From Saprospiraceae bacterium (GTDB lineage Bacteria > Bacteroidota > Bacteroidia > Chitinophagales > Saprospiraceae): a DNA stretch of 47,135 nt. The stretch spans positions 1 through 47,135 of the forward strand of contig JAIPBL010000048.1 of the NCBI GenBank assembly GCA_021739645.1. Reading direction: 5' to 3'. Each line of letters begins with the position of its first letter. The stretch's first letter is position 1. This document shows positions 4,519 through 36,910 of the stretch, piece after piece. A program made the position numbers and the translations under genes. A model generated the notes under the pieces. It searched no databases. It saw nothing but the letters and a program-made list of their open reading frames with translations, and was not told where the DNA came from.

Positions 4519-4582
4519 GCGCAGTCAATGCCGTGGTAGCAGTCCCTGACTGCCCACTGCCAACTGTCAAACTGCCAACTTA
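4519..4582 (-). repeat. Heptamer element overlapping a stop codon
   Basis: A minus-oriented copy of the GTTGGCA element. The TAA of the sigma factor gene (4580-4582) runs straight into it: AATTAAGTTGGCAG. It continues with the GGGACTGCTACC...GACTGC tail. Confidence 0.8.
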
Positions 4583-5239
4583 ATTCGCCCGATGGTTGCT
4601 TTCCAAATAAGCCATTGCCCCTGGGTTCTTCATAATGGTATAAAGCATTTCCTTGGCCCTGAACAGTTGGGCCTTCACCGTGCCGAGTGGGATTTCCAGT
4701 TCGGTGGCGATTTCTTCGTAGCTCAGTTCCTCGTAGTAGCGCAGCTCAATCATGAGGCGGTACTTGTTGCTGAGTTGCGTCAGCACAGAGCGCACCATTT
4801 GCAGGCGCTGCTGGCGGATGAACTCTTCCTCTGGGTTACGGGCGTAGTTGCGGATGGTACCGGTGAAATCCTTGTCACCATTGGCCTCCATGGGTTGGTC
4901 AATGGATAGGAAGTGTAGCCGTTTTTTCCGGATGTGGTCAATGCAGTTGTTTACCGCAATTTTGAAAAGCCAAGTAGAAAAGGCGTAGTGCGGCGCATAG
5001 GTCGAAAGCTTGTTGAAGGCTTTGCCGAATGCTTCGAGGGTCAGGTCTTCCGCATCGTCGTGATTTCGCACCATTTTGAAAAGGTGGTTGTACACGCTGG
5101 CACGGTAACGTTCGAGTAGGGTGGAGTAGGCTTGTTGGTTACCTGCAATGGCCGCCGTGACTAGTTGGTAGTCTTCGGATGCCTTGGGTGAAAGCCTAGT
5201 AGGATTGCTAACTGGGTGTTTAGTAAGTGTTAATTCCAT
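4580..5239 (-). CDS. ECF-type RNA polymerase sigma factor
   Basis: The 219-residue product is a sigma-70 family factor of the extracytoplasmic type. Region 2 is seen in NHLFKMVRNHDDAEDLTLEAFGKAF and FSTWLFKIAVNNCIDHIRKKR. Region 4 with its helix-turn-helix is seen in LRYYEELSYEEIATELEIPLGTVKAQLFRAKEML. The start at 5239 (MELTLTKHP) is preferred over an in-frame codon at 5326 because it directly overlaps the end of the glycosyltransferase gene by 10 bp, which suggests translational coupling. No anti-sigma gene is adjacent, so how it is controlled is not visible. The stop codon abuts a heptamer repeat element. Confidence 0.9.
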   Translation of the reverse strand: MELTLTKHPVSNPTRLSPKASEDYQLVTAAIAGNQQAYSTLLERYRASVYNHLFKMVRNHDDAEDLTLEAFGKAFNKLSTYAPHYAFSTWLFKIAVNNCIDHIRKKRLHFLSIDQPMEANGDKDFTGTIRNYARNPEEEFIRQQRLQMVRSVLTQLSNKYRLMIELRYYEELSYEEIATELEIPLGTVKAQLFRAKEMLYTIMKNPGAMAYLESNHRAN

Positions 5240-6429
5240 TGCTGGGTGTCGTCGTTGTTCATGAGAACTGACGGTGCGAACACGAGATAGTAAAGTATCA
5301 GCAAACAATCGAGGGCTGGGAGCCAAAGTCGCAACGAACGGTGCTGCAACTTGTCGAGAATCATGCTGCCTATAGCCAGTACTACACCCATTCTCACCGC
5401 ATATCCCAATAGAGCAAACATTATGCTAATTTTGAATATCAGTAACAAGCCTCCCAAAAAATAGTGTAGTAAGTGGCTCATAGTGAGCAAACTAAGGATA
5501 AATTTATCTTTAAATTTATATTCTGAACCGGTCGAAAAATGCCTCGTCTTTTGGCGGTAGTACGCCCGCCAGGTTAATTTGGGCTTAGAGTAAACGAACG
5601 TTCGAGGATTGAGCCGGATGCCGACTTTTCCACGTCTTGCCGCCGCATTGACGAACAAATCGTCGTCGCCGGAGGCAAGGTGTTCGTGACTGCGAAAGCC
5701 GCCTGTACGCTCATAAAGCTCCCTTCGGTAAGCCAGGTTCCTGCCAACACCCATGTAGGGATGCCCGGTAAGAGCGAGGGACAAGTACTGCATCGCAGTG
5801 TAACAAGCCTCGTACCTGACAAATTTGTTCAGGGGACCAGGAGCTTCGTCATAAGGTGCCACGCCGAGCACGATGTGGGTGTTCTCGTCCATGCCAGCCA
5901 CCATTCCCTGAATCCAATCTTGGCTTGCTGGCACACAGTCGGCATCCGTAAGTAAAAGAACTTGGTGTTTAGCCTGCTCAATCCCCTTCGCTAGGGCGAA
6001 TTTTTTTCCTATTCTCTCATCATCGCAAATGACTATGCGTAAATGATTGAACTTGCGTTGCAAAGATGTTAATATATTAAAAGAATTATCAGATGATTTA
6101 TGGAGCACTAGGAGAATCTCAAGGGAACGGTAGGTTTGGTTTAGGATACGGTCAAGGTGCCGCTCCAAATTTTCCGCCTCATTGCGGGCGCAGATGATGA
6201 CGGAGACGGAGGGAGAGGGCAGTTTGGTAGTGGGCAGTGGGCAGTCTTTTGCCGCGGTAAATTCATGCTGTCCAGTCTCAGGCGAATTATTTGCGTCTGG
6301 AACTTCCGAACCGTGGTCGGGAATTTCTTCCACTGGATGCCTTGCCAGTTTCCCGAAGACAAACAACCAGAAAAAAAGCTGAACCGCCGTGGCGGCCACG
6401 AAGCCGTAAAGTATAATGGTTTCGAGCAT
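5230..6429 (-). CDS. Membrane glycosyltransferase, family 2
   Basis: This 399-residue protein has an N-terminal membrane helix (about residues 5-27), a GT-A catalytic domain opening with VSVIICARNEAENL, the DxD motif in LLTDADCVP (about residue 160), the acidic SGDDDLFVN motif (about 250) and QKTRHFSTG (about 290) in place of the usual QxxRW. Two or three membrane helices follow (about 310-390). It would transfer a sugar from a nucleotide donor on the inner face of the membrane; the acceptor is unknown. Residues 61-72 (KDCPLPTTKLPS), between the first helix and the catalytic domain, are encoded by heptamer repeats. The stop overlaps the start of the sigma factor gene, so the two are likely one operon. 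A -7 box TAACTTTG lies at 6464-6471. Confidence 0.9.
   Translation of the reverse strand: MLETIILYGFVAATAVQLFFWLFVFGKLARHPVEEIPDHGSEVPDANNSPETGQHEFTAAKDCPLPTTKLPSPSVSVIICARNEAENLERHLDRILNQTYRSLEILLVLHKSSDNSFNILTSLQRKFNHLRIVICDDERIGKKFALAKGIEQAKHQVLLLTDADCVPASQDWIQGMVAGMDENTHIVLGVAPYDEAPGPLNKFVRYEACYTAMQYLSLALTGHPYMGVGRNLAYRRELYERTGGFRSHEHLASGDDDLFVNAAARRGKVGIRLNPRTFVYSKPKLTWRAYYRQKTRHFSTGSEYKFKDKFILSLLTMSHLLHYFLGGLLLIFKISIMFALLGYAVRMGVVLAIGSMILDKLQHRSLRLWLPALDCLLILYYLVFAPSVLMNNDDTQQWN
6217..6246. repeat. Heptamer repeats within the glycosyltransferase gene
   Basis: The plus strand reads GGGCAGT, TTGGTAG, TGGGCAG, TGGGCAG, a variant of the GTTGGCA heptamer family found between genes. Here it is translated as a linker rich in Pro, Thr and Lys. 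Confidence 0.7.
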
Positions 6430-6463
6430 GGCCGATTGGCGGTAATTTTTTGTTCGCCTTCGG

Positions 6464-6471
6464 CAAAGTTA
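6464..6471 (-). promoter_or_regulatory. Possible -7 box for the glycosyltransferase-sigma operon
   Basis: The minus strand reads TAACTTTG, a full TAnnTTTG match 35 bp before the start codon. No -33 match is seen. Confidence 0.4.
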
Positions 6472-6496
6472 ATCAAACGTAAACGTAGGTCGAGGG

Positions 6497-6527
6497 TTTC
6501 GGCGAAACGAAAGAACCCTTACTTTTG
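6497..6527 (+). promoter_or_regulatory. Promoter of the cupin gene
   Basis: TTTC, 19 bp, then TACTTTTG (6520-6527). This is one base off the Bacteroidota pattern TTTG-N19-TAnnTTTG, and it lies 37 bp before the ATG at 6565. It is divergent from the glycosyltransferase operon. Confidence 0.65.
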
Positions 6528-6564
6528 CCCACCCTACCCCAAGACACCTTTACAATCAAGTTTT

Positions 6565-7056
6565 ATGACAAAAAATGATTTTTTGAAAAAAGTGGCCCAG
6601 CGGCTTGAAAACGATGGTTTTACCATTGTAAAAAAAGACGATGCCCGGCCTTGGGGCGGCTTCTTTGTCATTGATGAATCACAGGCACACCGTTTCATCC
6701 AAACCTACTTCCCCGGTGTGCCGCTTTCAGATTTTGAAGGTTTTGAAAAATTAAGCCCAAAATTCCTCGTGGTGGCTCCCGGCAAGCGCCTCTCATGGCA
6801 GTACCATCATCGTCGTTCCGAAATCTGGCGGCTGTTGGAAGGCACCGCTGGGGTGGCCACTAGCACCACCGACGAGCAGGGCGAAGTGCAGACCCTTGCC
6901 ATCGGCGACCTCGTTCGCCTCGAATGTGGCGAACGCCACCGCCTAATCGGTCTCGATAGCTGGGGCGTACTCGCTGAAATCTGGCAGCACACCGACCCAG
7001 CCAACCCTTCCGATGAGGATGACATCGTGCGGGTACAGGATGATTTCGGCAGGTGA
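6565..7056 (+). CDS. Cupin protein like the C-terminal domain of type II phosphomannose isomerase
   Basis: The 163-residue product has ARPWGGFFVIDES followed by KFLVVAPGKRLSWQYHHRRSEIW and GDLVRLECGERHRL, the two cupin motifs of the metal-binding domain found at the C-terminus of bifunctional mannose-6-phosphate isomerase/GDP-mannose pyrophosphorylase. The His-His-Glu and later His ligands are present. Alone, it may isomerise mannose-6-phosphate or just be a cupin of unknown substrate. The frame is open from 6157, but the first 136 codons are the antisense of the glycosyltransferase gene. The ATG at 6565 follows a good promoter and begins the conserved part. Confidence 0.8.
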   Translation: MTKNDFLKKVAQRLENDGFTIVKKDDARPWGGFFVIDESQAHRFIQTYFPGVPLSDFEGFEKLSPKFLVVAPGKRLSWQYHHRRSEIWRLLEGTAGVATSTTDEQGEVQTLAIGDLVRLECGERHRLIGLDSWGVLAEIWQHTDPANPSDEDDIVRVQDDFGR

Positions 7057-7063
7057 ACTTGAT

Positions 7064-7134
7064 GCTGGATACTGGATACTGGATGCTTGATGGGTCTATC
7101 GTTTTTGGCCGCCATCCAGCATCCAGCCCCCAGC
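7064..7134. repeat. Inverted heptamer arrays between two convergent genes
   Basis: 7064-7091 is four 7-bp units (GCTGGAT, ACTGGAT, ACTGGAT, GCTTGAT). 7114-7134 is three units of the reverse complement (ATCCAGC, ATCCAGC, CCCCAGC). The two arrays can pair into a stem with a loop containing GTTTTTGGCC. They fill nearly the whole gap between the cupin stop and the dtd stop, so a bidirectional terminator role is plausible. Confidence 0.75.
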
Positions 7135-7136
7135 CA

Positions 7137-7589
7137 TCACTCCCTCCCCTTCGAATCCATTACAATCGTCACTGGCCCGTCGTTGAGCAGGCCAACTTTC
7201 ATGTCGGCGCCAAACTCGCCCGTCAGCACCTCCAGCCCCGATATTGCCCGAAGGGCAGCCACAAAGTTTTCATAAATGGGAATGGCCACCTCAGGCCTTG
7301 CTGCCCGGATGAACGAAGGGCGGTTGCCCTTCTTCGTACTGGCGTGAAGGGTAAACTGGCTGACGACGATGATTTGCCCATTGATGTCCTGCACGGACAA
7401 ATTCATTAGCCCATCAGCATCGCCGAAAATCCTTAGCTGCGCAATTTTTTTGGTGAGCCACTCAATGTCCTCCGGCCCATCGGCATCCTCCACACCTAAT
7501 AGTATGAGCAGCCCCAGCCCGATTTCGGACTTGACCTTGCTATCGATGGTAACGGAAGCTTGGGAAACTCGCTGGATGACTGCTCGCAT
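7137..7589 (-). CDS. dtd: D-aminoacyl-tRNA deacylase
   Basis: This 150-residue cytoplasmic enzyme hydrolyses D-amino acids (and Gly) mischarged onto tRNA. The start [13 protein letters not shown] is the standard N-terminus of the family. Both active-site signatures are present: [17 protein letters not shown] near residue 80 and the Gly-cisPro motif in [13 protein letters not shown] at the C-terminal end. The frame is open to 7622, but the family start at 7589 is clear. It is convergent with the cupin gene. Confidence 0.95.
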
Positions 7590-7718
7590 GGAAAAAGGAT
7601 TTAGGTTGACAATTTGGTGCAATCATAAGCAATGCCCACCGTTGTTTATTTGTTTTGGGTGCAATGCTTTCAAAAAAGCAGCCCACCCAAAATCCTCCAA
7701 ACTCCCAACTTCCTTTCG

Positions 7719-7726
7719 TAGTTTTG
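7719..7726 (+). promoter_or_regulatory. Possible -7 box for the PBP1A gene
   Basis: TAGTTTTG matches TAnnTTTG and lies 65 bp before the start codon. No clear -33 element. Confidence 0.35.
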
Positions 7727-7791
7727 CGCCTCAACCGACAAATGTGGCCGTTCAAGCAACATGCCCATTTGCCGGAAAACTAATCTGAACG

Positions 7792-10430: not shown

Positions 10431-12440
10431 ATGAGCAAATATCTACCTTTATTCATAGTTTGTATCAGCCTCTTCACGCAATGCGTGCCCCCGTCCGAGG
10501 AGAAAGCGCAGGGCGTACACCTCGATTTCACCAACCCTACCTACCAGGCCGTCTATGACCTGAAAGACCGGGGACAAACCGACAGCCTGCTTAGCTATTT
10601 TAAAAACAAGGATGCCACGCTGCGCTACATGGCCGTCATTGCTTTTGCCTCCATCAAGGACAACGCGGCCATTGACAGCTTGGCCTACATGCTGGGTGAC
10701 CCAGAAGAAGAAATCCGCATCGCAGCGGCCTATGCCTTGGGGCAAATTGGCGACAAAAGAGCCGAACCACTCCTGCTCAAAGGCTTTGACCGGAGCGATA
10801 CCGTCGGCATTTCAAAGAACATCAACGCCGCCATCATGGAAGCTGTCGGGAAATGCGGCACCATGAAAATGCTCGATGCACTCACCAGTATTAGCAGTTA
10901 CCGAGTGACCGACACCACCCTGCTGGAGGGGCAGGCATGGGGCATTTACCGCTTCGGCCTGAGGGACTCCATCTCCTTGGCAGGCACTGCCAAAATGATG
11001 GACTTTGCCACCAGTTCAAAGTACCCGAACAGCGTCCGTTTCATTGGCGCCAACTACCTTTCGAGGATGAAAAAAATTGAGCTGGAGAAAGGCGACAGCA
11101 TCCTGGCACCTGCACTGACCCGGGAAGAGGACTACCGCATTCGGATGTGCCTGGCCATTGCCCTCGGTAAAACAAAAACCGAACGTGCGACGAACGCCCT
11201 GCTCTTGCAATACAACGTGGAGCGGGATTACCGGGTGAAGTGCAACATCCTGCGGGCCCTCGGCAATTTTGACTATGAAACCGTAAAAGCAACCGTTTAC
11301 AATGCACTTTCCGATCAAAACATTCCAGTAGCCATCACGGCTGCCGAGTTTTTCGTGGACCACGGCGTGGCCACTGAGGCCAGCACTTACTGGGAAATTG
11401 CTAAACAACCAGGCCGCAAGTGGCAGGTGGCCATGACGATGTATGCCGCAGCCTCCAAGTACCTACCCTACGGTTTTGAAGAAACCCGCAAATACCTCAA
11501 TTGGGAAATCAAGCGCCGATTCGAGAACGCCGATTCTCCTTATGAAAAGGCCGCTGCCCTGAAGGCGCTCGGTCAATATGGCTGGAACTACCATTACATC
11601 CGCGATGCCGCCTACCCCTCGGAGTTTGTGGTGGTGCGTACAGCGGCGGTAGAGGCGCTCGGCAACATTGCCAAGATGCCCAATTTCAATGCTTTTTTTG
11701 GTGGAGGAAACACCGCCCGAAGAGAATTGGCAGAGTGCCTTCAAGACGCCATCACCACGGGCGATGTGGGCATGATGGCCGTTGCCGCCGAGGTGCTTCG
11801 GGACTCCACAGCCAAGTTCAAGACTGTTTTCGACAGCGTCTCGGTGTTTGAAAATGCACTGAAAAAACTCCGGCTCCCACAGGAAATTGAGACCTACAAC
11901 GAGGTGAAACTGACGCTCGATTATTTCAAAGGGGAAAAAAGTGCGCCTACCAAGCCCAAGTTTACCCATAAAATTGACTGGAAAATCATCACTGACCTCA
12001 AGCCTGGTTCAACGGTCGTCATCAAAACCAAAAAGGGCAATATTACCCTCGACCTACTACCCGACCAAGCACCCGGCACGGTATCCAACTTCTTGGAGTT
12101 GATAAAAGACAAGTATTACAACGGTAAAAACTTCCACCGCATCGTGCCCAATTTCGTGGCACAAGGCGGCTGCTCCCGTGGCGATGGCTACGGCGGCCCC
12201 AGCTACGCCATCCGCTCAGAGTTGCCCTACCTCCACTACGACCAGGAGGGCTACGTGGGCATGGCCTCCGCCGGAAACAACACGGAATCATCGCAGTTTT
12301 TCATCACCTACAGCCCCACGCCGCACCTCGACGGCAAATACACCATCTTCGCAAAAGTGATAGAAGGCATGGACGTCGTGACCAAGCTTCAAATAGGCGA
12401 TTTGATGGAAGAGGTGACCTTAGTTGAGCCGAAATCTTAA
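10431..12440 (+). CDS. HEAT-repeat lipoprotein with a C-terminal cyclophilin domain
   Basis: The 669-residue product has a lipoprotein signal peptide with the likely acylated Cys18 (LFTQCVPPS). A long stretch of HEAT-like helical repeats follows (about residues 35-490, for example MAVIAFASIKDNAAIDSLAYML and AAAYALGQIGDKRAEPLL). The cyclophilin-type peptidyl-prolyl isomerase domain is about 520-665 (NFHRIVPNFVAQGG, SSQFFITYSPTPHLDGKYTIF). It probably folds or sorts envelope proteins, with the HEAT part acting as a scaffold. This is inferred from domains and its place after the PBP1A gene. Its stop codon TAA is joined to a heptamer element. Confidence 0.9.
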   Translation: MSKYLPLFIVCISLFTQCVPPSEEKAQGVHLDFTNPTYQAVYDLKDRGQTDSLLSYFKNKDATLRYMAVIAFASIKDNAAIDSLAYMLGDPEEEIRIAAAYALGQIGDKRAEPLLLKGFDRSDTVGISKNINAAIMEAVGKCGTMKMLDALTSISSYRVTDTTLLEGQAWGIYRFGLRDSISLAGTAKMMDFATSSKYPNSVRFIGANYLSRMKKIELEKGDSILAPALTREEDYRIRMCLAIALGKTKTERATNALLLQYNVERDYRVKCNILRALGNFDYETVKATVYNALSDQNIPVAITAAEFFVDHGVATEASTYWEIAKQPGRKWQVAMTMYAAASKYLPYGFEETRKYLNWEIKRRFENADSPYEKAAALKALGQYGWNYHYIRDAAYPSEFVVVRTAAVEALGNIAKMPNFNAFFGGGNTARRELAECLQDAITTGDVGMMAVAAEVLRDSTAKFKTVFDSVSVFENALKKLRLPQEIETYNEVKLTLDYFKGEKSAPTKPKFTHKIDWKIITDLKPGSTVVIKTKKGNITLDLLPDQAPGTVSNFLELIKDKYYNGKNFHRIVPNFVAQGGCSRGDGYGGPSYAIRSELPYLHYDQEGYVGMASAGNNTESSQFFITYSPTPHLDGKYTIFAKVIEGMDVVTKLQIGDLMEEVTLVEPKS

Positions 12441-12576
12441 AGTTAGCAGTTCGACAGTGTGCAGTTCGCAGTCAGTCTTAAAGTCCACAAGTCTATTAGT
12501 CCAGCGCCTTTCACTGGCTAAAGAACTAACCAACTGTCGAACTGACTGCCCACTGCCAACTGGCGAACTGCCACCT
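12438..12576. repeat. Pair of inverted heptamer elements after the lipoprotein gene
   Basis: 12438-12479 is a plus-oriented copy that begins at the TAA of the preceding gene (TCTTAAAGTTAGCAG). 12531-12576 is a minus-oriented copy (AACTGTCGAACTGACTGCCC onward). The two can pair, and they fill the gap before gcvT. Confidence 0.75.
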
Positions 12577-12610: not shown

Positions 12611-13717
12611 ATGAAAAGCACACCACTGACAGACAAGCACACTGCCCTCGGGGCAAAAATGGCCGAATTTGCTGGCTACAACATGCCCATCTCCTACGCT
12701 GGCATTCGGGAAGAACACGAATGCGTGCGCACGGCCGTCGGCGTATTCGACGTATCGCACATGGGCGAGTTCATCGTGCGGGGCAAGCAGGCGCTCGACC
12801 TCGTGCAAAAAGTAACCTCCAACGACGCCTCCAAACTTGAAATCGGCGACGTACAATATTCCTGTCTGCCCAACGGCCAAGGCGGCATCGTGGACGACCT
12901 GCTCGTGTACCGCCTTCCACAAGATATGTGCGCCGAGGGCGAACAAGCCTTCCTGCTCGTCGTCAACGCCAGCAATATTGACAAGGACTGGAACTGGATT
13001 TCGAAGCACAACCACTTCGATGCCCGCATGATCAACATCTCTGACGAGACTGGCCTCCTCGCCGTGCAAGGCCCAAAAGCCGCCGAAGCACTACAACCGC
13101 TGACGGACATTGACCTCGGCAGCATGAAATACTACAATTTTGCCAAGGGTAAATTCGCTGGTATCGACAACGTGCTGGTGAGCGCCACGGGCTACACTGG
13201 CTCTGGCGGCTTTGAGATTTATGTAAACAATGAAGACTTGGCCAGCCTTTGGGACGCCGTTTTTGCTGCTGGCGCAAACTTTGGCATCAAGCCAATCGGC
13301 CTCGGTGCCCGCGATACGCTCCGCTTGGAGATGGGTTTTGCCCTCTACGGCAACGATATTGATGACACGACCTCCCCGCTGGAGGCTGGCCTCGGCTGGA
13401 TCACCAAGCTGAACAAGGGCGACTTCAACGACGCCGATTTTTTGCGCAAACAAAAAGAAGCTGGCCTCAGCCGTAAGCTCGTCGCCTTCGAAGTGCTCGA
13501 CCGCCGGGTGCCCCGCCACGATTACCTCATTGAGGACATGGACGGCAATACCATCGGAAAAGTGACCTCGGGTACGCAGTCGCCCTCACTGGACAAGCCC
13601 ATCGGAATGGGCTACGTGACCACTGCTTTTGCGAAGGAAGGCACGGAGATTCAGGTAGTTGCTGGTGGGAAAAAACTGGCGGCGAAGGTGGTGAAGCTGC
13701 CTTTTTATAAGGGGTAG
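12611..13717 (+). CDS. gcvT: Glycine cleavage system T protein (aminomethyltransferase)
   Basis: The 368-residue product transfers the methylene group from the aminomethyl-lipoyl H protein to tetrahydrofolate and releases ammonia. The N-terminus ([21 protein letters not shown]), [25 protein letters not shown] and the [20 protein letters not shown] block are typical of GcvT, and the C-terminal barrel ends with [13 protein letters not shown]. Length is normal. Other glycine cleavage genes (gcvH, gcvP) are not in the window. No glycine riboswitch is visible upstream, where the gap is filled by repeats. Confidence 0.96.
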
Positions 13718-13782: not shown

Positions 13783-13965
13783 AGGGGTTGTGTAAAAAGT
13801 CCCATCGGAACTATATCTTTGTAGCATTGCCAAAGAATGTTCCGAACCTTTCCGTAGGAACGGCATCCTGGCAGAACAAATGCCGTTCCTACGGAATGGC
13901 AGACGAAATTACATTCGTCGGTTCTACAAAGATTCACCCCCTACGGGGCTTTTTACACAACCCCT
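13783..13965. mobile_element. MITE-like nested palindromic element
   Basis: Perfect 17-bp terminal inverted repeats (13783-13799 and 13949-13965, AGGGGTTGTGTAAAAAG outward in). Inside them are a second inverted pair (CTTTGTAG at 13817-13824 and CTACAAAG at 13924-13931) and a perfect 17-bp central stem (13850-13866 and 13880-13896, core CCGTAGGAACGGCAT). No ORF. The central stem is nearly the same as in the element at 43677-43825. It is 183 bp long, lies between gcvT and the dehydrogenase gene, and could fold into one long cruciform. No target duplication was established. Confidence 0.75.
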
Positions 13966-14751: not shown

Positions 14752-16479
14752 TCAATTTACTTCCTTCCTCCCCAACATCGCCTGCAAAACCGCCGCCGCA
14801 CCCATCACCACAAAGCACCCAATCGGGTTCAGCCAGATGAAGCCGAGGTCTTCTTTCCCGTCCATTTTATCCAAAAAATAAGTAGCCAAGACCACCGCCT
14901 CTCCGATGATGGCGGCGATGAAGACCGCCGTTCCACGTATCCATTTCATCGCAAAAGCCGCCACGAAGATACCGAGTATCGTGCCATAGAGCAGCGAGCC
15001 GACGATGTTCACGGCCTGTATCAGGTTCTCGAAAAGCAAGGTGATGGAGGCGAAGAAAATGACCACGGCCCCCCAGCCAAGCGTCATCCACTTGGAGATG
15101 CTGAGGTAGTGGCTGTCGGTGGCTTCTTTCACCATCGAGCGGCGGTAAATGTCCACGACGGTGGTGGTGGCCAGGGCGTTCAGCTCGGAGGCGAAGGACG
15201 ACATGGCGGCGCAGAAAATCACCGCCAGCAGCAGCCCAATCATGCCCTTTGGCAGGTAGTTGACCACGAAAGTGATGAAGATATAGTCCTTGTCGTTGGA
15301 CTCCATGACCCGGTTGTTCTCCTTGGCGTACTGCTGCACGAGCGTGTCCACACCGCCCCGCACGGCGATTTCCTGCTTGTTCAGGGCGATGACTTTTTCC
15401 TTGGAACTGGCCGTTGCGGCAGCGTCGTCTTGCTTCATGACCTGAACGAGGTGCAGCACTTCGGCTTCTTTTTCTTCAAAAATAGCCTTGTGCTGCTGCT
15501 TGAGGTCATCGAGTTTGGGTTGGTAGGCTGGGGCGCTTTCGAGGGCGAGCAGGTTGGCCTTGTTGTAGTGAACTGGCGACTCGGTGAACTGGAAAAACAG
15601 GAACACCATCACGCCTGTGAACAGCACGAACCACTGCATCGGGATTTTGATGATGCCGTTGAAAATCAGACCCATCCGGCTCTCCTTCAGCGAGCGTCCG
15701 CTCAGGTAGCGCTGCACCTGCGACTGGTCGGTGCCGAAATACGACAGGAAGAGGAAGGTCGAAGCAATCAGTCCCGACCAAATATTGTAGCGGTTGGAGA
15801 GGTCCCATTTGGTGTCGAGGGTGTCCATTTTGCCCATCTCACGGGCCACACCCACGCCGTCCCAGAGGCTGACTTCGGACGGGAATTTGGCGACGATGAT
15901 GAACGCCGTGACCGCCAAGCCTATCAAAATCACGGTCATCTGCTGCTGTTGCGTCACGCTCACGGCCTTCGTTCCCCCAAACACCGTGTAAATCGTGACC
16001 ACAGCACCCGTGATGATGATGGTCCACTGCAAGTTCCAGCCCATGATGCTGGCCAGCACGATGCTCGGTGCCGCGATGGTGAAGCCCGCCGCCATTCCCC
16101 TCGAAAACAGGAAAAGCATGGCCGCCAGTGTGCGGGTTTTTAGGTCAAAACGTTGCTCCAAAAACTCGTAAGCCGTGTAAACATTGAGTTTGTAATAAAT
16201 TGGCAGGACAAAAATGGCGATGATGGCCATCGCAATCGGCAGGCCGTAATAGAATTGCACGAAGCGCATTCCATCGTCATAAGCCTGGCCAGGCGTGCTC
16301 AGAAAAGTGATGGCGCTCGCCTGTGTGGCCATCACCGACAGGCCGATGGTCCACCAACCGAGTTCCCGGTCGCCCATGAGGTAGCTCTTCACGTTGTCCA
16401 CGCTGCGGGTCTTCCACATGCCGTAGGCGATAATGCCGACGAGCACGGTAATCATTACGGTCCAGTCAATCCAATGCAT
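14752..16479 (-). CDS. Sodium:solute symporter (SSS family)
   Basis: The 575-residue inner-membrane protein has about 13 membrane helices. Its SSS features include MGDRELGWWTIGLSVMATQASAITFLSTPGQAY near the N-terminus and the YFGTDQSQVQRYLSGRSLKESRMGLIFNG block. It should import a small solute with sodium; the solute is not evident. A soluble, charged, probably coiled-coil insert of about 95 residues (about 300-395, rich in Lys, Glu and Gln) separates two helices. The 5' side is occupied by four tandem repeat units (16483-16746), so any promoter must lie in or beyond them. Confidence 0.92.
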   Translation of the reverse strand: MHWIDWTVMITVLVGIIAYGMWKTRSVDNVKSYLMGDRELGWWTIGLSVMATQASAITFLSTPGQAYDDGMRFVQFYYGLPIAMAIIAIFVLPIYYKLNVYTAYEFLEQRFDLKTRTLAAMLFLFSRGMAAGFTIAAPSIVLASIMGWNLQWTIIITGAVVTIYTVFGGTKAVSVTQQQQMTVILIGLAVTAFIIVAKFPSEVSLWDGVGVAREMGKMDTLDTKWDLSNRYNIWSGLIASTFLFLSYFGTDQSQVQRYLSGRSLKESRMGLIFNGIIKIPMQWFVLFTGVMVFLFFQFTESPVHYNKANLLALESAPAYQPKLDDLKQQHKAIFEEKEAEVLHLVQVMKQDDAAATASSKEKVIALNKQEIAVRGGVDTLVQQYAKENNRVMESNDKDYIFITFVVNYLPKGMIGLLLAVIFCAAMSSFASELNALATTTVVDIYRRSMVKEATDSHYLSISKWMTLGWGAVVIFFASITLLFENLIQAVNIVGSLLYGTILGIFVAAFAMKWIRGTAVFIAAIIGEAVVLATYFLDKMDGKEDLGFIWLNPIGCFVVMGAAAVLQAMLGRKEVN

Positions 16480-16482: not shown

Positions 16483-16746
16483 AGTTCGTCAGTTCGACAG
16501 TTGGCAGTTGGCAGTCAGAGGCTGCTACTTTGCACGGGCTGTCTTTTTAAGTTGGCAGTTAGACAGTTGGCAGTTGGGGACTGCTATTTTGCACAGGCTG
16601 CCGTTTTTAAGTTCTTAGTTAGACAGTTGGCAGTTGGCAGTTGGGGACTGCTATTTTGCGCAGGCTGCCTTTTTTAAGTTCTTAGTTAGACAGTTGGCAG
16701 TTGGCAGTCAGAGACTGCTATTTTGCGCAGGCTGCCTTTTTTAGTT
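16483..16746 (+). repeat. Four tandem copies of the heptamer element
   Basis: Units of 60-67 bp start with GACAGTTGGCAG at about 16496, 16562, 16622 and 16689. Each has two or three GTTGGCA heptamers, then GACTGC, an AT-rich stretch (TATTTTGC), GCAG or ACAG, GCTGCC and a run of 5-6 T. GGCAG...CTGCC with an inner CTGC...GCAG pairing before the T-run resembles an intrinsic terminator on the plus strand. The gene-free stretch 16480-16863 holds this array and the inverted copy at 16829-16866, with an AT-rich piece between them and nothing else recognised. Confidence 0.85.
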
Positions 16747-16828
16747 AGCCTGTTGGCTGTTATTCTTGAAGTCTAATAATCATAAAATATTGAGGCGTTT
16801 TATGGCATTTCAAATTAAGAATTGCACT

Positions 16829-16866
16829 CTGACTGCCAACTGCCAACTGTCTAACTGCCAACTTTA
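16829..16866 (-). repeat. Heptamer element abutting the four-helix-bundle stop codon
   Basis: On the minus strand the gene ends TCT TAA and continues AGTTGGCAGTTAGACAG. Only the heptamer part is present, not the tail seen in the tandem copies. Confidence 0.8.
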
Positions 16867-17226
16867 AGAAAATTTTTCGGGGTTGTCTATCATACCGGAT
16901 AGCATCCTGCCTACTTCTTCTGAATCGGCTATCCAATTGTCATATTTTTCTTTGGTGATGTATTTACAAGTCAAGGCAAAATCGCACCAGACTTGAGTTT
17001 CTGTATTTTCGCTATCCGCATCGGTTAGTTTGCTGGAAAAATGCTTAGGGTATTTTTTCTTGCGGTATGCCTCGCCGATACAACTACATACGGACCTCGA
17101 ACTTCGCCTAATCTGGTCGGTCAATGAATATTTTTCCTCAATTGGAAAGCTTTTGCTTTCCTGAAAAATATCCATCGCCAACTTAAAAGCCTTCCGGTAA
17201 ACGACGAGGTCTCTAAATGTTCCCAT
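16864..17226 (-). CDS. Four-helix-bundle protein (23S rRNA intervening-sequence protein family)
   Basis: The 120-residue cytoplasmic protein has FRDLVVYRKAFKLAMDIF at the start, SLTDQIRRSSRSVCSCIGEAYRK in the middle and a C-terminal helix with EVGRMLSGMI. This is the small family first found inside intervening sequences of 23S rRNA genes and now known to be spread through Bacteroidota genomes as free genes. Its role is not established; RNA or nucleic-acid binding is a guess based on the basic surface. There is no rRNA gene nearby. Its stop codon is joined to a heptamer element. Confidence 0.88.
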   Translation of the reverse strand: MGTFRDLVVYRKAFKLAMDIFQESKSFPIEEKYSLTDQIRRSSRSVCSCIGEAYRKKKYPKHFSSKLTDADSENTETQVWCDFALTCKYITKEKYDNWIADSEEVGRMLSGMIDNPEKFS

Positions 17227-17318
17227 AGTATTTGCTTTTGTAAGGTTTTTATGTCTCCTTATTTGGCAATTAGCGGCAAATATTAAATACTATCCTCCCC
17301 TGACTAAACAACTGCATC

Positions 17319-17347
17319 CCGACTGCCAACTGTCGAACTGCCAACTA
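17319..17347 (-). repeat. Heptamer element overlapping the thiL stop codon
   Basis: The thiL stop TAG (17345-17347) is part of the repeat itself: TTTTTAGTTGGCAG on the minus strand, followed by TTCGACAGTTGGCAGTC. Confidence 0.8.
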
Positions 17348-18382
17348 AAAATGCTTCCACCCCTGCGCCACCAAATCATGAATCTTCCCGCCGCTCGAAT
17401 GCAGTTTCACGCCCTCGCTCGCTTCGGTGATTTCGCCCATGATGTAGATGTCTGGCATGAGGCGCACCTTGTCTAGGTCTTTTATATCCACGGTGAAAAG
17501 CAGCTCGTAGTCCTCGCCGCCGTTGAGGGCGCAGGTGAGGGGGTCAAGCTGGAATTTCAGCGCCATTGTTTTCGCATCGTTGTGGATGGGCACGCCGATT
17601 TCTTCGATAATGGCCCCCACGCCGGACTGCTTGCAGATGTGCATCAGGTCGGAAGAGATACCATCCGATACGTCCATCATGGCCGTTGGCACGAGGTTGG
17701 CGTTTTTGAAAACTTCAATCATGTCCTTGCGGGCCTCCGGTTTCAGGAAGCGCCCGACGAGGTAATCCTGCTCCTCCAGGTCGGGTTGGATGCCGGGGTT
17801 GGAAAGGTAAATTTGCTTTTCCCGTTCCAGTATTTGCAGGCCAAGGTAGGATGACCCGAGGTCGCCAGTGATGCAGATAAGGTCGCCGGGTTTTGCGCCG
17901 TTGCGATATACCAATTCTTCCTCCTTCACTTGCCCGATGGCCGTCACGCTGATGACAAAACCCTTCTGGGAACTGGTCGTGTCGCCGCCCACAAGGTCCA
18001 CGCCGTAGTGTTTGCAGGCCAAATGGATTCCTTCGTAAAACTCGTCGAGTGCCTCCACGCTGAAACGATTGGAAATGGCGATGGACACCGTCACCTGCTT
18101 CGGCTGGGCGTTCATGGCGTAGATGTCCGAGAGATTGACGACTATGGACTTGTAGCCCAAATGTTTCAGCGGGCAGTACATCAGGTCGAAATGGACGCCC
18201 TCCACCAGTAGGTCGGTGGAGACCACGGTCAGAAAGCCTTCGTTGTCAATCACAGCGGCATCGTCGCCGATGGCGTAGTGACTACTTTCGTTCTGGATTT
18301 CGAAGTTTTTGGTCAAATGCTCAATGAGTCCAAACTCGCCGAGCGAGGCAATTTCTGTGCGTCCGAGGTCTTGTTTTTCCAT
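17345..18382 (-). CDS. thiL: Thiamine-monophosphate kinase
   Basis: The 345-residue enzyme phosphorylates thiamine monophosphate to thiamine diphosphate with ATP, the last step of thiamine biosynthesis. Family blocks seen are GEFGLIEHLTK, the metal-binding AIGDDAAVI, STDLLVEGVHF, KSIVVNLSDIYAMNA, LVGGDTTSSQKG and MDVSDGISSDL. The frame runs to 18577, but the ATG at 18382 gives the family N-terminus and the rest overlaps the DUF4143 gene. A weak -7 box (TACCTTCG at 18406-18413, minus) may serve it. No TPP riboswitch is visible in the short leader. Confidence 0.94.
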   Translation of the reverse strand: MEKQDLGRTEIASLGEFGLIEHLTKNFEIQNESSHYAIGDDAAVIDNEGFLTVVSTDLLVEGVHFDLMYCPLKHLGYKSIVVNLSDIYAMNAQPKQVTVSIAISNRFSVEALDEFYEGIHLACKHYGVDLVGGDTTSSQKGFVISVTAIGQVKEEELVYRNGAKPGDLICITGDLGSSYLGLQILEREKQIYLSNPGIQPDLEEQDYLVGRFLKPEARKDMIEVFKNANLVPTAMMDVSDGISSDLMHICKQSGVGAIIEEIGVPIHNDAKTMALKFQLDPLTCALNGGEDYELLFTVDIKDLDKVRLMPDIYIMGEITEASEGVKLHSSGGKIHDLVAQGWKHF

Positions 18383-18446: not shown

Positions 18447-19607
18447 TCACAGTTGCAGCTTCGGAATGTTTTTCCAAGAAACAAGCTTTCCGTGCGCCGT
18501 CTCCCAGTCGTCATCACCACCATAAATGGCCATGCCTTTTTCAACAGGAACATCCGCCACGTTTTCCCACCATTCAATGTTCTTGAAAAAATCCGAGTTA
18601 AAGGTTCTGCCAGATTTTACCTCAATCGGCAAGAGTCGCCCGCCGAGGTCAAGCACTAGGTCAATTTCCCGACCCGTGCTGTCTCGCCAGTAGTAAATGG
18701 GCGGGCGAGAACCTTTATTGTAGTAGATTTTTGAAATTTCATTGACCACGAAATTCTCAAACAGACTTCCTTTTTGGTAGTAGTTTTCCAGCGCATCCAA
18801 ACTGTTGATTCTCAACAAGGAGCAAGCCAAGCCAGTGTCATAAAAATACAATTTTGGCGACTTCACAATCCGTTTATTGAAGTTTCGGAAATAAGGATTG
18901 AGTTGGTAAACAATGTAAGAAGTCTCCAAAATGGAGAGCCAGTTCTGCGCCGTATTTACGCTGATGCCGACTTGGTTCGCCAGCGTGGAATAGTTGACAA
19001 TCTGTCCGGCATGTCCGGCACACATTGAAAGGAAGCGGCTGAAAAGGTTGAGGTTTCCCACGTTTTTCACCTGCCGAACGTCCCGCTGCACGTAGGTTTC
19101 GATATAACTCTGATAGAATCCGATTGGGTCAAGGTCTTTGTCGTAAAGACGAGGGTAGGCTCCTTTAAAGAGGAGTTCTTCATATTCTGTTGGCGCAATT
19201 CCCGCTGAATCCAATTCGGCCAGTGAAAATGGCAACAAGTAGAAAATGGCCGTGCGACCAGCAAGTGTCTGGCTCACGTTTTCCATCATCAGCATATTGT
19301 GCGAGCCTGAAAGGACGAAAAAAGCGTTAGGGTCTTCATCCACAATGGTTTGGATATAGGATAAAACCTCTGGCGTCCGCTGTACCTCGTCCAGCACCAT
19401 TCGGTGGCCATGCCTTGCGAAGAGTTCCCTTGGGTTCTCGCTGACCTGCAACCGCACGTCGGGGGTTTCCATCGAAAAATAAGGGAGGTCAGGGAATAGG
19501 GACTTGATGAGCGTGGTTTTCCCGCCTTGCCTTGGGCCAGTGATGGTAACTACTGGATACTTGCCTTCGACGGCTTTGATGCTATCGGTGATGTTGCGAA
19601 TTATCAT
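18447..19607 (-). CDS. ATP-binding protein with DUF4143 domain
   Basis: The 386-residue product is an AAA-like ATPase with Walker A at GPRQGGKTTL (residues 24-33), Walker B in HRMVLDEVQR (about 72-81), a sensor-like VLSGSHNMLMM segment and a DUF4143 C-terminal part (about 190-386) that contains the nuclease-like block DSTGREIDLVLDLGGRLLPIEVKSGR. The E-I-D...E-V-K pattern resembles a PD-(D/E)XK core. The role is unknown; the family is often present in many copies in Bacteroidota. The start at 19607 is chosen because a perfect promoter and a 16-bp inverted repeat lie directly upstream, and the longer frame would run through them. Confidence 0.88.
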   Translation of the reverse strand: MIIRNITDSIKAVEGKYPVVTITGPRQGGKTTLIKSLFPDLPYFSMETPDVRLQVSENPRELFARHGHRMVLDEVQRTPEVLSYIQTIVDEDPNAFFVLSGSHNMLMMENVSQTLAGRTAIFYLLPFSLAELDSAGIAPTEYEELLFKGAYPRLYDKDLDPIGFYQSYIETYVQRDVRQVKNVGNLNLFSRFLSMCAGHAGQIVNYSTLANQVGISVNTAQNWLSILETSYIVYQLNPYFRNFNKRIVKSPKLYFYDTGLACSLLRINSLDALENYYQKGSLFENFVVNEISKIYYNKGSRPPIYYWRDSTGREIDLVLDLGGRLLPIEVKSGRTFNSDFFKNIEWWENVADVPVEKGMAIYGGDDDWETAHGKLVSWKNIPKLQL

Positions 19608-28310: not shown

Positions 28311-28338
28311 ATAAAAAAGCAAACCGAACTGCAACACC

Positions 28339-31155: not shown

Positions 31156-31218
31156 AAGCACTTTGCCTTGTGGAACTTTGGGAGAATGGATTAACTTTAT
31201 TGCCTAAAACTAAGAAAC

Positions 31219-31994: not shown

Positions 31995-32002
31995 CCTCAC
32001 TT

Positions 32003-33328: not shown

Positions 33329-33333
33329 TTTTT

Positions 33334-33365
33334 GAAGGATTGAAGGATTGATGGAAAGAAGGATT
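33334..33365. repeat. 8-bp repeats in the gap between the ABC genes
   Basis: GAAGGATT occurs at 33334-33341, 33342-33349 and 33358-33365. It lies in the short gap between the stop of the ATPase gene and the start of the permease gene, so it may affect coupling of the two. Confidence 0.6.
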
Positions 33366-33373
33366 GAAGCGGC

Positions 33374-34288: not shown

Positions 34289-34460
34289 GTCATGATTTGA
34301 TTAGCGGTGCGAAAGGTAGGCTTTTCGCAGAAACGGTAGTGCGAGTTATTCTATCGGGCGTCCTTTTTTTTCGATAAAAGAAAATACGACACCTCCTTTT
34401 TGCCTTTTTAGGAACCTGACTTTTGGAAAAAAATGGCGTCCGGTGGTGGTGGCAGGAGCA

Positions 34461-34468
34461 TAGCTTTG
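34461..34468 (+). promoter_or_regulatory. Possible -7 box for the T9SS cargo gene
   Basis: TAGCTTTG matches TAnnTTTG and lies 32 bp before the ATG. No -33 TTTG at 19 bp. Confidence 0.4.
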
Positions 34469-34499
34469 GTGGTATTGTTTCACAAAAAATATTGAGCTT

Positions 34500-35216
34500 A
34501 TGAAAATTAAAATTACCACCGTATTTGTTGCGTTGCAACTGGTTGTTCTCACCGCTTTTGCACAAAGCACAAACCTAATCACTGGCACCATCACCGACGA
34601 AAAAGGGGAACCGTTGCCTTTTGCAACCGTGCTGCTGGGCAATGGAAATGGCGTCGTGACTGATTTTGACGGTCATTTTTCCGTTGGAATACCTGCGGAT
34701 GAAGAGAGCATGGAGATGACCGCTTCCAGCACAGGTTACACCCCTCAAACGGCACTTTGGACGAAGGGCAGACTGGGAGAGCCAATGAAGCTGAGATTGA
34801 AAACAGGAATAGATTTGCCGGTTGTTGTGGTTAGCTATCTAAGTTCGGGCAATCGCTGCTGCTGTACAATATGTTGTCAAATCTGTTCCCGTCAAGAAGA
34901 ACATCCCATGATTCAACCTCCGCCTACGGTAGATAGCGTTGAAAATATTGAGCCTCGGCTCAACATCTACCCCAACCCCTTCATCTCCACCCTCAATGTC
35001 GAAATGGAGGTAATAACAGCCCAACCGTACCTCTTCCACCTCTACAACGAACCCGGCCTACTTGTCTTCGCCGAAAGCAGGAATTTGGAGGCGGGCCTGC
35101 AAACCTTCCAACTCGACCCCGTGCAACGTCATTTACCGGAAGGCATCTATTTCCTCCGCATCTCCGACGATGCCGGGGAGGTGCGGACGAAGCGGCTGGT
35201 GAAGGTCAGCCCGTAA
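34500..35216 (+). CDS. T9SS-secreted protein with a carboxypeptidase-regulatory-like domain
   Basis: The 238-residue protein has a signal peptide (VFVALQLVVLTAFAQS, cleaved near residue 22). A carboxypeptidase-D-regulatory-like beta domain follows (about 25-95, LITGTITDEKGEPLPFATVLL). Next is a linker with six Cys in eleven residues (CCCTICCQICS, about residues 119-129). The C-terminal sorting domain of type IX secretion begins with LNIYPNPFISTLNVEM (about 154) and ends with TKRLVKVS. It is likely displayed on the cell surface. The function is unknown. The stop codon TAA is the first triplet of a palindromic repeat. Confidence 0.85.
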   Translation: MKIKITTVFVALQLVVLTAFAQSTNLITGTITDEKGEPLPFATVLLGNGNGVVTDFDGHFSVGIPADEESMEMTASSTGYTPQTALWTKGRLGEPMKLRLKTGIDLPVVVVSYLSSGNRCCCTICCQICSRQEEHPMIQPPPTVDSVENIEPRLNIYPNPFISTLNVEMEVITAQPYLFHLYNEPGLLVFAESRNLEAGLQTFQLDPVQRHLPEGIYFLRISDDAGEVRTKRLVKVSP

Positions 35217-35335
35217 CACGGTCTGCCAGACCGTGCTTCCGCATTTCCCACAACGGCAGCTTGTCCGTTTTCAGGAAAGCACGGACTGGCAGTCCGTGTT
35301 ACGAAAAAAAAGCACAGACTGGCAGTCCGTTTTAC
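35214..35335. repeat. Palindromic repeats starting at a stop codon
   Basis: An inverted pair matches at 22 of 24 positions (35215-35238 and 35277-35300, each itself a palindrome CACGG...CCGTG). A third unit follows (35311-35335, AGACTGGCAGTCCGT). The first unit begins with the TAA of the preceding gene. A GAAAAAAA run lies between units 2 and 3. Confidence 0.85.
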
Positions 35336-35411
35336 AAAAACAACCTACATTAACGGCCTCAACCGCAACAACGGTTGGAGCCGTTTCACTTAACAAAACA
35401 ATCTGGTAATC

Positions 35412-36845
35412 ATGTCAACTACACCATCCGAAAAGAAAAACACCTTCAAACGCAGGGATTTTGTAAAAGCAGCGGGCCTTGGCGCAGCAGGCTTTTTCAT
35501 TGTGCCCCGCCACGTTCTGGGCAAGGGCTTCAAAGCACCCAGTGATAAACTGAACGTCGCCCTCATCGGCGCAGGTGGCCGGGCAGAGGGGCACCGAGAT
35601 GCGCTGAAAGGCGAAAACTTCGTAGCCTTCTGCGATGTGGACGATGCACGTGCAAAGACCACCTACGAGATGTACCCGAAAGTGGCCCGGTTCAAGGATT
35701 TCCGCAAGATGTTCGACACCATGGCCAAGGGCATTGACGCAGTCGTAGTCGCCACGCCCGACCATACGCACTTCTTGCCCACGCTGACGGCCATTCAACT
35801 TGACAAGCATGTTTATGTAGAAAAACCGCTGACGCACAGCATCTGGGAGGCACGTGAACTGCTGAAGGCAGCCCAAAAGCATAAAGTGGTGACCCAAATG
35901 GGAAACCAAGGCTCCTCGATGGACTGCATCCGTGACACCGTCGAGTGGATACAATCCGGCACCATCGGCGAAGTGACGAAGGTGCATATCTGGACCAACC
36001 GCCCCGTTTGGCCACAAGGCGTTCCGACACCAAAAGACAAAGTAGCTGTGCCCAGCACCCTCGACTGGGACCTCTGGCAAGGCCCAGCCGCTATTCGTGA
36101 TTACAATCCCGCCTACCTGCCCTTCAAATGGCGTGGCTGGTGGGACTACGGCACCGGTTCTTTCGGCGACATGGGCTGCCACCTCGTGGACCCCGCCTAC
36201 CGGGCACTGAAACTGACGACGCCACGTACTGTTGAGGCCAGCGCCAGCACGGTCTGGGTCGGCGACTTCGTGGAGGCCAACTACCCCGACTCTTGCCCGC
36301 CATCGAGCCTAGTGAAAATGCAGTTCGATGCACGGGAGGGCCTGCCAGCTTGCGAACTCTGGTGGTACGACGGTGGCATCCGTCCGATGCGTCCTGAAGA
36401 GCTTGGCCCGAACGAAGAGTTCGGCAGCTGGGATGGCGGCGTGCTTTTCGAAGGCTCGAAAGGCAAATTGCTGTGTGGCATTTTTGGTGAAAAACCGACC
36501 CTGCTGCCGACCAGCCGGATGAAGGATGCCACCCCACCGAAGCCTTGGCTGAAGCGGGTGAAAGGCGAGCATCAGCAGATTTGGGCGGAAGCCTGCAAGG
36601 GCAATGGCGAAGCTACTTCCCCGTTCGAGTACGCCGTGCCGCTGACGGAGACGCTGCTCATCGGCAACTTGGCTGTGCGCTGCTACGACTTCAAGAAACT
36701 GCAACCCGGCAAAACGGCAACCTCTTGGGCACCTTACGACTACCCCGGCCGTGTCCGCCTCGATTGGGATGCGGTGAACGGTCGGGTGACTAATTTCGAA
36801 GAAGCCAATCAGTTCGTGAAGCGGGAGTACCGGAAGGGATGGTGA
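35412..36845 (+). CDS. Gfo/Idh/MocA-family oxidoreductase, Tat-exported
   Basis: The 477-residue protein starts with a twin-arginine signal (KRRDFVKAAGLGAAGFFIV). A Rossmann nucleotide-binding domain follows (about 48-170, VALIGAGGRAEGH), with the EKP motif in DKHVYVEKPLTHS, then the C-terminal substrate domain. Members act on sugars or sugar alcohols with NAD(P). The Tat signal means export as a folded protein with its cofactor, common for this subfamily in Bacteroidota. The substrate cannot be deduced. A heptamer element starts right after its stop. Confidence 0.93.
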   Translation: MSTTPSEKKNTFKRRDFVKAAGLGAAGFFIVPRHVLGKGFKAPSDKLNVALIGAGGRAEGHRDALKGENFVAFCDVDDARAKTTYEMYPKVARFKDFRKMFDTMAKGIDAVVVATPDHTHFLPTLTAIQLDKHVYVEKPLTHSIWEARELLKAAQKHKVVTQMGNQGSSMDCIRDTVEWIQSGTIGEVTKVHIWTNRPVWPQGVPTPKDKVAVPSTLDWDLWQGPAAIRDYNPAYLPFKWRGWWDYGTGSFGDMGCHLVDPAYRALKLTTPRTVEASASTVWVGDFVEANYPDSCPPSSLVKMQFDAREGLPACELWWYDGGIRPMRPEELGPNEEFGSWDGGVLFEGSKGKLLCGIFGEKPTLLPTSRMKDATPPKPWLKRVKGEHQQIWAEACKGNGEATSPFEYAVPLTETLLIGNLAVRCYDFKKLQPGKTATSWAPYDYPGRVRLDWDAVNGRVTNFEEANQFVKREYRKGW

Positions 36846-36846
36846 T

Positions 36847-36910
36847 TTTAGTTGGCAGTTTGACAGTTGGCAGTTGGCAGTCAGGGGCTGCTAACTGGGG
36901 AAGGGCTGTC
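36847..36910 (+). repeat. Heptamer element after the oxidoreductase stop codon
   Basis: It begins TTTTAGTTGGCAG immediately after the TGA (36843-36845). Three GTTGGCAG-type heptamers and GTTTGACA precede the tail GGGGCTGCTAACTGG...GGGCTGTCGG, a degraded form of that in the tandem array. Confidence 0.8.

Follow-up and report, generated by a model that had tools for sequence, protein, structure and literature searches.

Palindromic repeats with heptamer and octamer arms at gene edges and in protein linkers of a Saprospiraceae genus

Tandem repeats of seven nucleotides (nt) that touch coding regions have been described in several bacterial lineages. In the available portion of the report by Rehm et al. 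2015 (PMC4692102), intergenic heptamers of the types GGGAATC in Xanthomonas and GGGGAYT in Nostoc are described, some of which overlap stop codons; their G-rich strand is sense after stops and antisense before starts, and they are scarce between divergent genes. The same portion counts 70 and 75 inverted pairs in two Xanthomonas, finds 83% of the repeats in the same gene context in a close relative, and discusses both quadruplexes and slippage for these heptamers. Likewise, the accessible part of MacGregor 2015 (PMC4679880) describes TAACTGA direct repeats in Beggiatoaceae, Cyanobacteria and some Bacteroidetes. Here, we consider a repeat built on the heptamer GTTGGCA in a 47,135-nt stretch from an uncultured Saprospiraceae bacterium (contig JAIPBL010000048.1 of assembly GCA_021739645.1), hereafter the window, which is an entire contig (C44) of a draft genome of 6.16 Mb in 147 contigs. 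An earlier note on this DNA had drawn attention to the repeat on account of its position at stop codons.

In this Saprospiraceae genus, the GTTGGCA element belongs to a large class of palindromes whose arms have a period of 7 or 8 nt. The explanation that we favor, with moderate confidence, is that these are mobile repeats which survive in DNA free of constraint as far as the next base under constraint, and that stop codons are not targeted; where elements are found at stop codons, they probably show the point at which constraint ceases and not a preferred target. The element was analyzed in 61 stretches of the genome (1,154,322 bases with the window), drawn for the most part from contigs in which matches had already been located; in this sample, a home-made codon-score finder called 917 genes (85.7% coding). 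By eye, the consensus of an arm, read inward, is A-GTTGGCA-GTTNGACA-GTTGGCA-GTKGGCA-GTC. Two-armed copies number 36 in the sample and span 73 to 214 nt, of which 17 are short (73-99 nt, most of them 80 or 87 nt) and 19 long (115-214 nt, many near 170-180 nt); the short-form lengths rise in sevens (73, 80, 87) and the short form has, by eye, a core near CTGCTWCCACG. One copy (L093 15740-15826) is a nearly perfect 87-nt hairpin of -72 kcal/mol with a z score of -13, and three GTTGGCA copies in the window have hairpin z scores of -2.5, -3.3 and -6.6. The core GTTGGCAGTTNGACAGTTGG is matched 12 times in the window with up to three mismatches, where shuffles lead one to expect 0.02. A search of the genome and of relatives, as the earlier note had proposed, returned 165 genome matches of the 18-nt core with up to two mismatches, versus one for the reversed pattern, while of twelve genomes of the genus six contain 45-187 core matches, four contain 2-4 and two none (reversed control 0-6). 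G003, G005, G006, G008, G011 and G012 are rich in the element, and G001, G002, G004, G007, G009 and G010 poor in it. Mobility is suggested by this copy number together with the irregular order of units and the core that the copies share.

The earlier note had named five repeat sites that abut a stop codon on the same strand, and all five are present as written: the arm edges at 4580(-), 12441(+), 16863(-), 17346(-) and 36850(+) lie -1, 0, 0, -2 and +4 nt from the stop. It missed the arms at 1069 and 16484, each of which is 4 nt upstream of the start codon of a gene on the opposite strand. In the sample, 129 GTTGGCA arms were located, for which the nearest feature on the outer side is a stop in 56 cases, a start in 45 and none in one, the remaining 27 lying within genes. 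Forty-nine of these arms lie in the sense direction at -3 to +9 nt from a stop, and 20 lie antisense at 0 to +9 nt upstream of a start. By comparison, 500 random draws gave 0.62 stop-proximal and 0.55 start-proximal arms for placement anywhere, and 3.4 of each (maxima 9 and 11) for placement in intergenic DNA only. With the window left out, the counts are 44 and 18 of 118 arms. Abutment of stops is thus well beyond chance and consistent in strand with the upstream gene, as the earlier note had anticipated. Further, in the 31 gaps with a facing arm pair, 37 of 40 stop-side edges are within 9 nt, two of the 37 overlapping the called gene by 12-13 nt; the start-side edges are close in 10 of 22 cases, with 19-162 nt left in 11 and 419 nt in one. 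Sliding an array within its own gap is uninformative because the gap is nearly filled by the array, and element-free gaps were used instead; their medians are 85 (++), 97 (--), 66 (+-) and 234 nt (-+), and length-weighted random insertion into them would come to lie 5 nt or less from the left gene 2-4% of the time.

Site-specific insertion at stop codons, one of the two explanations that the earlier note had offered, could account for the 49 of 129 edges at stops and for the enrichment of TAG beside arms (16 of the 49 stops next to arms, versus 133 of 764 stops without an element). However, arms also abut starts (20 of 129), edges are found at promoter-like boxes, arms lie within called reading frames (27 of 129), and in relatives a different word often occupies the same edge. 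We hence reject it as the general cause and regard it as very unlikely. The TAG excess is expected if the leading AG of the element often supplies the end of the stop codon, and stop codons would dominate because most free stretches begin there.

The class comprises many words. In 133.6 kb of intergenic DNA without a GTTGGCA arm, self-matching 12-nt windows per 10,000 reach 74.0 at lag 7 and 43.1 at lag 8, versus 1.3 and 1.2 in shuffled sequence (about 56-fold and 37-fold); lags 14, 16 and 21 are also raised (52, 32 and 22), lags 2-6 give 1.0-4.7 and lag 1 gives 11.7, and coding DNA has 5.7 at lag 7 and 3.1 at lag 8. At a loose threshold, 204 of the 729 gaps of at least 25 nt contain arrays with a period of 7-9 nt, of which 50 hold GTTGGCA and a few are simple repeats such as ATG runs. 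Counted at a stricter threshold on the G-rich strand with at most one mismatch, AGTTGGC occurs in 23 gaps, ATTGGTG, AGGTTTC and AGTTTTG in nine each, the octamers AGGATTTG and ATTGTTGG in eight each, AGGTATG in seven, and AAAAAGT and ATTGGGTT in six each, while the octamer ACAGTTCG, which is the irregular unit of the GTTGGCA arm, occurs in nine. The sharing of words between separate loci is in clear excess over letter-shuffled units for GTTGGCA (23 versus 8).

As far as the available text of PMC4692102 extends, the Saprospiraceae repeats are like the Xanthomonas and Nostoc heptamers in being tandem 7-nt intergenic units under the same placement and strand rule, but differ in that those genomes have one word type each whereas here there are many words, octamers included, several of them without GG. 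A further difference is that edges here are at 0-9 nt. Neither a change of word between orthologous sites nor palindromes lying in frame within enzymes were encountered for those repeats in that portion of the source. The shared placement and strand rule, together with arms that are G-rich inward, would suit the idea that G-quadruplex formation is what maintains the arrays, a role discussed for the Xanthomonas and Nostoc heptamers. Yet the frequent words AGTTTTG, AAAAAGT and AAATCGT contain no two adjacent G, so that this explanation is not general; judged from the sequence, such words would not be quadruplex-forming units of that type, and we consider the idea highly improbable. The TAACTGA repeats are comparable in forming intergenic heptamer arrays that touch start codons and in part overlap stops, but in the accessible part of PMC4679880 they are direct repeats of one word and are not described as palindromic pairs that fill gaps, unlike those of Saprospiraceae.

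Orthologous gaps, anchored on the flanking genes, were compared with those of relatives. At the end of gene 35412-36845, inspection by eye finds GTTGGCA arms in G003 and G008, a GAGTTTT type in G012, a TTTGAGGGG type in G007, a CGGTGGA/CGGTTGA type in G006 and G011, AACAATG in G001 and no array in G005. Similarly, at L078 13603-13695 a hairpin-like spacer bounded by the same start and stop is present in the source genome and six relatives; its word is GAGGTAT in the source genome, GAGGGAT (one letter off) in G012 and G006, CGGTGGA in G005 and ATGAATG in G007, and the spacers of G003 and G008 lack a clear period. Among the elements of the window, the site at 1069..1111, compared in six relatives, carries an element in G008, G006, G011 and G012 and none in G003 and G007; that at 4508..4580 carries one in G005, G006 and G011 and none in G003 and G008; and at 17310..17346 the position of the stop is constant in relatives while the neighboring spacer is different. 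A scripted count covered 30 junctions and 71 comparisons, excluding gaps below 25 or above 700 nt and loci whose flanking anchor was missing or too far off. In the 51 comparisons with an array in the source genome, the relative has the same word (at most one mismatch) in seven and a different word in 21, of which at least five look by eye like degenerate GTTGGCA; in the 20 comparisons without an array in the source genome, five relatives have one. In the comparison of gene ends with and without the element, which the earlier note had suggested, some relatives lack the element and others have different words in its place. As a separate observation, one intergenic region of G002, a relative without GTTGGCA core matches, has GGGAGTA and CTCATCC heptamer arrays over more than 400 nt (L222, G002:C1:1-20000, 18548-18975).

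The outer ends of the arrays coincide with several kinds of boundary. At L078 9464-9615, a promoter-like box GGCAAAGATAAAG is kept and arrays occupy both sides of it, with an array on one side only in G012 and G005; we take such boxes to represent the promoter motif TAnnTTTG. The arm at 1069..1111 likewise sits between the ATG of gene 93-1064 and a promoter-like box. Two convergent gaps, L078 12136-12310 and L096 9215-9386, have a native terminator in the loop that is flanked by arms, and at the latter site G003 and G012 have a terminator but no such arms. The recurrence of ends at stops, starts, promoter-like boxes, terminators and domain edges, together with the change of words, argues that the arrays are filler of unconstrained DNA.

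The second explanation in the earlier note, a 3' untranslated region (UTR) module, accounts for many of the copies but leaves out the ones within 5' UTRs and proteins, and where convergent gaps were read closely the native terminator is in the loop, apart from the arms. The tail of GACTGC...GGCTGCC with a T-run, in which that note saw transcript ends, is present, but in the form described it belongs mainly to one array (16505-16743). By a home-made rule, terminator-like sites occur in 8 of 18 convergent gaps with GTTGGCA and in 36 of 69 element-free ones; hairpins with a T-run are therefore not commoner where the element is, as would be expected of an intrinsic terminator, nor are they rarer, and the arms do not seem to replace terminators.

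A broader version of this view is that a hairpin at gene ends is selected as a bidirectional 3'-end, RNA-stability or insulating structure, with the shape mattering and the word being free. It would readily explain why the architecture is kept while the word changes at orthologous gaps, and it is in keeping with the z scores of the window copies and of the L093 hairpin. It also suits the distribution among gaps: elements, defined as GTTGGCA or as arrays of other words covering at least 40 nt, are present in 25 of 117 convergent gaps, 80 of 471 tandem ones and 12 of 141 divergent ones, even though the divergent gaps are the longest. Further, the polarity of the arms is uniform. Where a gap holds two or more arrays of other words (48 gaps), G makes up 32% of the first array and C 33% of the last, the other of these two bases being at 7% in each; among the 62 single arrays no more than 12 nt from a gene edge, the inward strand is G-rich in 52 and the opposite strand in five, with five tied, as against 19 to 23 with two tied for single arrays away from edges. 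On the other hand, copies in 5' UTRs and within proteins do not fit a gene-end structure, nor do the terminator counts just given. Moreover, in 8 of the 20 tandem gaps with paired arms both sides are tight, and among these eight TAnnTTTG is found in none and a terminator-like site in one, so that the downstream gene probably needs read-through and transcription probably reads through such tight operon gaps. We hence think a selected hairpin unlikely as the explanation of the class.

The 27 arms in called genes comprise 21 in sense and 6 in antisense orientation, three of them within 41 nt of the gene end. Eight arm-bearing proteins were scanned, and seven have Pfam domains, e.g., SNF2 helicase, P-type ATPase, AMP-binding enzyme and E1 dehydrogenase, with none in the eighth (L040). 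Two loci were compared with their orthologs. The SNF2 linker has degenerate GTTGGCA in G003, TATTGGG-type arrays in G012 and G010, and other sequence in G006, G011 and G007. The loop of the ATPase has GTTGGCA in G003 and G005, half an element in G008, unrelated palindromes in G006 and G011, and is shorter and without an element in G012, G002 and G007. In this respect the class resembles the Rickettsia palindromic elements, which in the available part of PMC10969869 are short palindromes of several families lying in frame in protein genes; those elements, compared by description only, are about 150 bp long and not heptamer-built, and no gene-edge rule was encountered for them in that text. In the window itself, a degenerate GTTGGCA-like arm lies in the reading frame at 6218-6248, within gene 5230-6429(-).

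Under the persistence of mobile repeats in free DNA, the GTTGGCA element would be a high-copy non-coding palindrome whose copies spread over the genome and gain or lose 7-nt units, possibly by copying of the hairpin through a trans-acting factor or through template switching during replication. Copies would persist only in free sequence, i.e., from a stop to the next terminator, promoter or start, or in a tolerant in-frame linker, with purifying selection presumably removing those in constrained DNA. A stop would be abutted where freedom begins, sometimes inside the codon, as the A or AG of the element can complete the stop; other neutral DNA would be lost, leaving the element touching the edge, and over evolutionary time the word at a site may be replaced by another.

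Several observations weigh against this scenario. The edges of the elements are sharper than would be expected from random insertion into gaps already present, so that one has to assume that flanking DNA was replaced or subsequently lost. The sharing of words other than GTTGGCA is only modestly above that of shuffled units, e.g., 9 versus 6.6 at rank two. The G-rich-inward polarity at gene edges (52 versus 5, with 5 ties) is not explained by neutrality, 23 of the 51 comparisons have no array in the relative, and native terminators within loops misfit the insertion of one two-armed unit. Likewise, the likeness of the left and right arms is reached by shuffled partners in 2 of 2000 trials for all 36 copies and in 18 of 2000 for the long form, but in 180 of 2000 for the short form, where it is not clearly above that of shuffled partners. 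Finally, no linked transposase was found in a search that covered the Y1_Tnp family, and no target duplication was seen.

Some of these points would be accommodated by in-place polymerase slippage with fold-back template switching at a local hairpin, without movement between loci. The length steps of seven, the arm likeness within elements overall and in the long form, and the native terminators in loops are all in line with it, and slippage has been proposed for heptamers in the literature cited in the accessible part of PMC4692102. Nevertheless, the same irregular unit order recurs in 165 genome matches, the short copies share a core by eye, words are common to separate loci above the level of shuffled units (clearly for GTTGGCA, modestly for others), and for the short form taken by itself the arm likeness is weak. 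Slippage in place hence appears quite unlikely to us. Outward growth of arrays until a gene is met is disfavored for GTTGGCA, since its outer end is mostly fixed sequence.

No mobilizer emerged for the preferred scenario of dispersed copies. Seven genome matches to Y1_Tnp showed no consistent flanking repeat pattern, arrays being present near two of the seven in the stretches examined (a TTATTGGG palindrome in L265 and a C-rich array in L262), and repetitive extragenic palindromic (REP) sequences or bacterial interspersed mosaic elements with a RAYT transposase were accordingly rejected. No target-site duplication was seen by eye at the junctions compared. Integron attC sites are presumably a poor fit, the unit not being GTTRRRY and the copies being dispersed. 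The genome has one match to RVT_1 (L240, G000:C51, around 41217-41858), whose neighbors look to us like the Avd protein of a diversity-generating retroelement and a RAYT-type transposase. Telomerase-like addition of repeats to broken ends followed by joining would yield paired G-rich-inward arrays, and there is a precedent in DRT10 enzymes, which produce 9-nt tandem repeats from an RNA template (PMC12632851). However, the sole reverse transcriptase gene apparently belongs to a diversity-generating retroelement and the arms are partly mirrored; such an origin was rejected and its probability is practically negligible. A rather doubtful, if more far-reaching, proposal is that a dedicated Saprospiraceae machinery draws 7- and 8-letter words from a common pool, writes them as palindromes into any unconstrained DNA with a fixed G-rich-inward polarity, and in the course of evolution rewrites the word of a site.

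The elements of the window are collected in Table 1. In the composite element, the arms at 16550, 16610 and 16677 are members of the 67-nt tandem array, and in the long two-armed element the arm at 12576 is the inward-facing partner of that at 12441. No Rfam family matches the window at its gathering score.

Table 1. Elements with 7- or 8-nt periodicity in the window and their relation to gene edges
Element	Position	Strand	Relation to genes
GTTGGCA single arm	1069..1111	+	4 nt upstream of ATG of minus-strand gene 93-1064
Short two-armed GTTGGCA element, 73 nt	4508..4580	-	outer edge overlaps TAA stop of gene 4580-5239(-) by 1 base
Long two-armed GTTGGCA element, 136 nt	12441..12576	+	begins right after TAA of gene 10431-12440(+)
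Composite: four GTTGGCA arms, 67-nt tandem array, then inverted arm	16484..16863		one end 4 nt upstream of ATG of gene 14752-16479(-); inverted arm end directly after stop of gene 16864-17226(-)
GTTGGCA single arm	17310..17346	-	own AG forms TAG stop of gene 17345-18382(-)
GTTGGCA single arm	36850..36910	+	4 nt past TGA stop of gene 35412-36845(+)
CTGGATA/CTGGATG palindrome	7057..7136		fills convergent gap stop to stop
GAGGTAT heptamer array	2557..2592	+	about 20 nt upstream of start of gene 1265-2536(-)
Octamer array, GATTGAAG type	33330..33356	+	between start and stop
AAAGGAA-type arms	45441..45668		at both ends of convergent gap

The window also contains repeats of other kinds. A second recent repeat of about 182 nt, partly palindromic, lies at 13783-13965; copies 96-97% identical to it occur on C51, C58, C80 and C116 of this genome, and others with 85-87% identity in G008 and G012. 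At 35217-35341 are two 33-nt tandem units with a ACGGACTGGCAGTCCGT hairpin; relatives of this repeat are widespread in the genus, with a long tandem array at G006:C1 around 118009-118674. A 33-nt direct repeat of CCCAATAAATTGGGCGACCACAAT type, with 94% identity between 57-89 and 4312-4344, is related to inverted repeats at 4280-4350.

The breadth of the class was estimated from 80 loci around orthologs of gene 12611-13717, which we take to be the glycine-cleavage T protein, with the loci grouped by record titles. Judged by this protein, the nearest named relatives of the source genome are metagenome-assembled Saprospiraceae. The densities at lag 7/lag 8 per 100 kb are 98.4/55.3 in the source genome, 51.5/36.4 in 33 Saprospiraceae-type loci, 79.4/18.7 in 14 loci named as Bacteroidota only, 30.6/9.4 in 12 of Chitinophagaceae, 17.1/7.6 in five of Pedobacter type, 5.1/0 in six of other Chitinophagales, 2.8/0.9 in seven of Flavobacteria type and 0/0 in two of Sphingobacteria type, with lags 5 and 6 at 0-13; the words differ between species. 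This spread across groups is provisional, as much of the signal comes from few loci. Two further systems invite comparison. As far as the accessible portions of the sources go, the BrickBuilt miniature inverted-repeat transposable element of Porphyromonas gingivalis (PMC4596501) is likewise from Bacteroidota and has tandem units and small inverted-repeat ends, but unlike GTTGGCA has a 23-nt unit, 19 copies and distances of 49-591 nt from the nearest coding sequences; the tandem repeats of Borgs (PMC9879509) are similarly both intergenic and in frame, evolve fast and differ between related genomes, but are archaeal and extrachromosomal, with units of 18-21 nt in the example given, and are not described there as palindromic. 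Among the matches listed in the open-access literature, no description of multi-word palindromic heptamer spacers in Saprospiraceae was found, and no paper on CAGTTGGCAGTTGGCAG was found there.

What appeared as a curiosity of stop codons thereby becomes a question of what the spacer DNA of one group of environmental bacteria consists of. The same placement and strand rule was known for one G-rich word type in Gammaproteobacteria and Cyanobacteria, and here it is met with many words. The orthologous sites that carry different words constitute a natural experiment that can separate the shape of a hairpin from its sequence, and the in-frame copies in a helicase and an ion pump point to a route from a non-coding repeat to a protein linker. 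Should a dedicated palindrome-writing machinery exist after all, much of the spacer DNA and some of the protein linkers of these bacteria would derive from that source.

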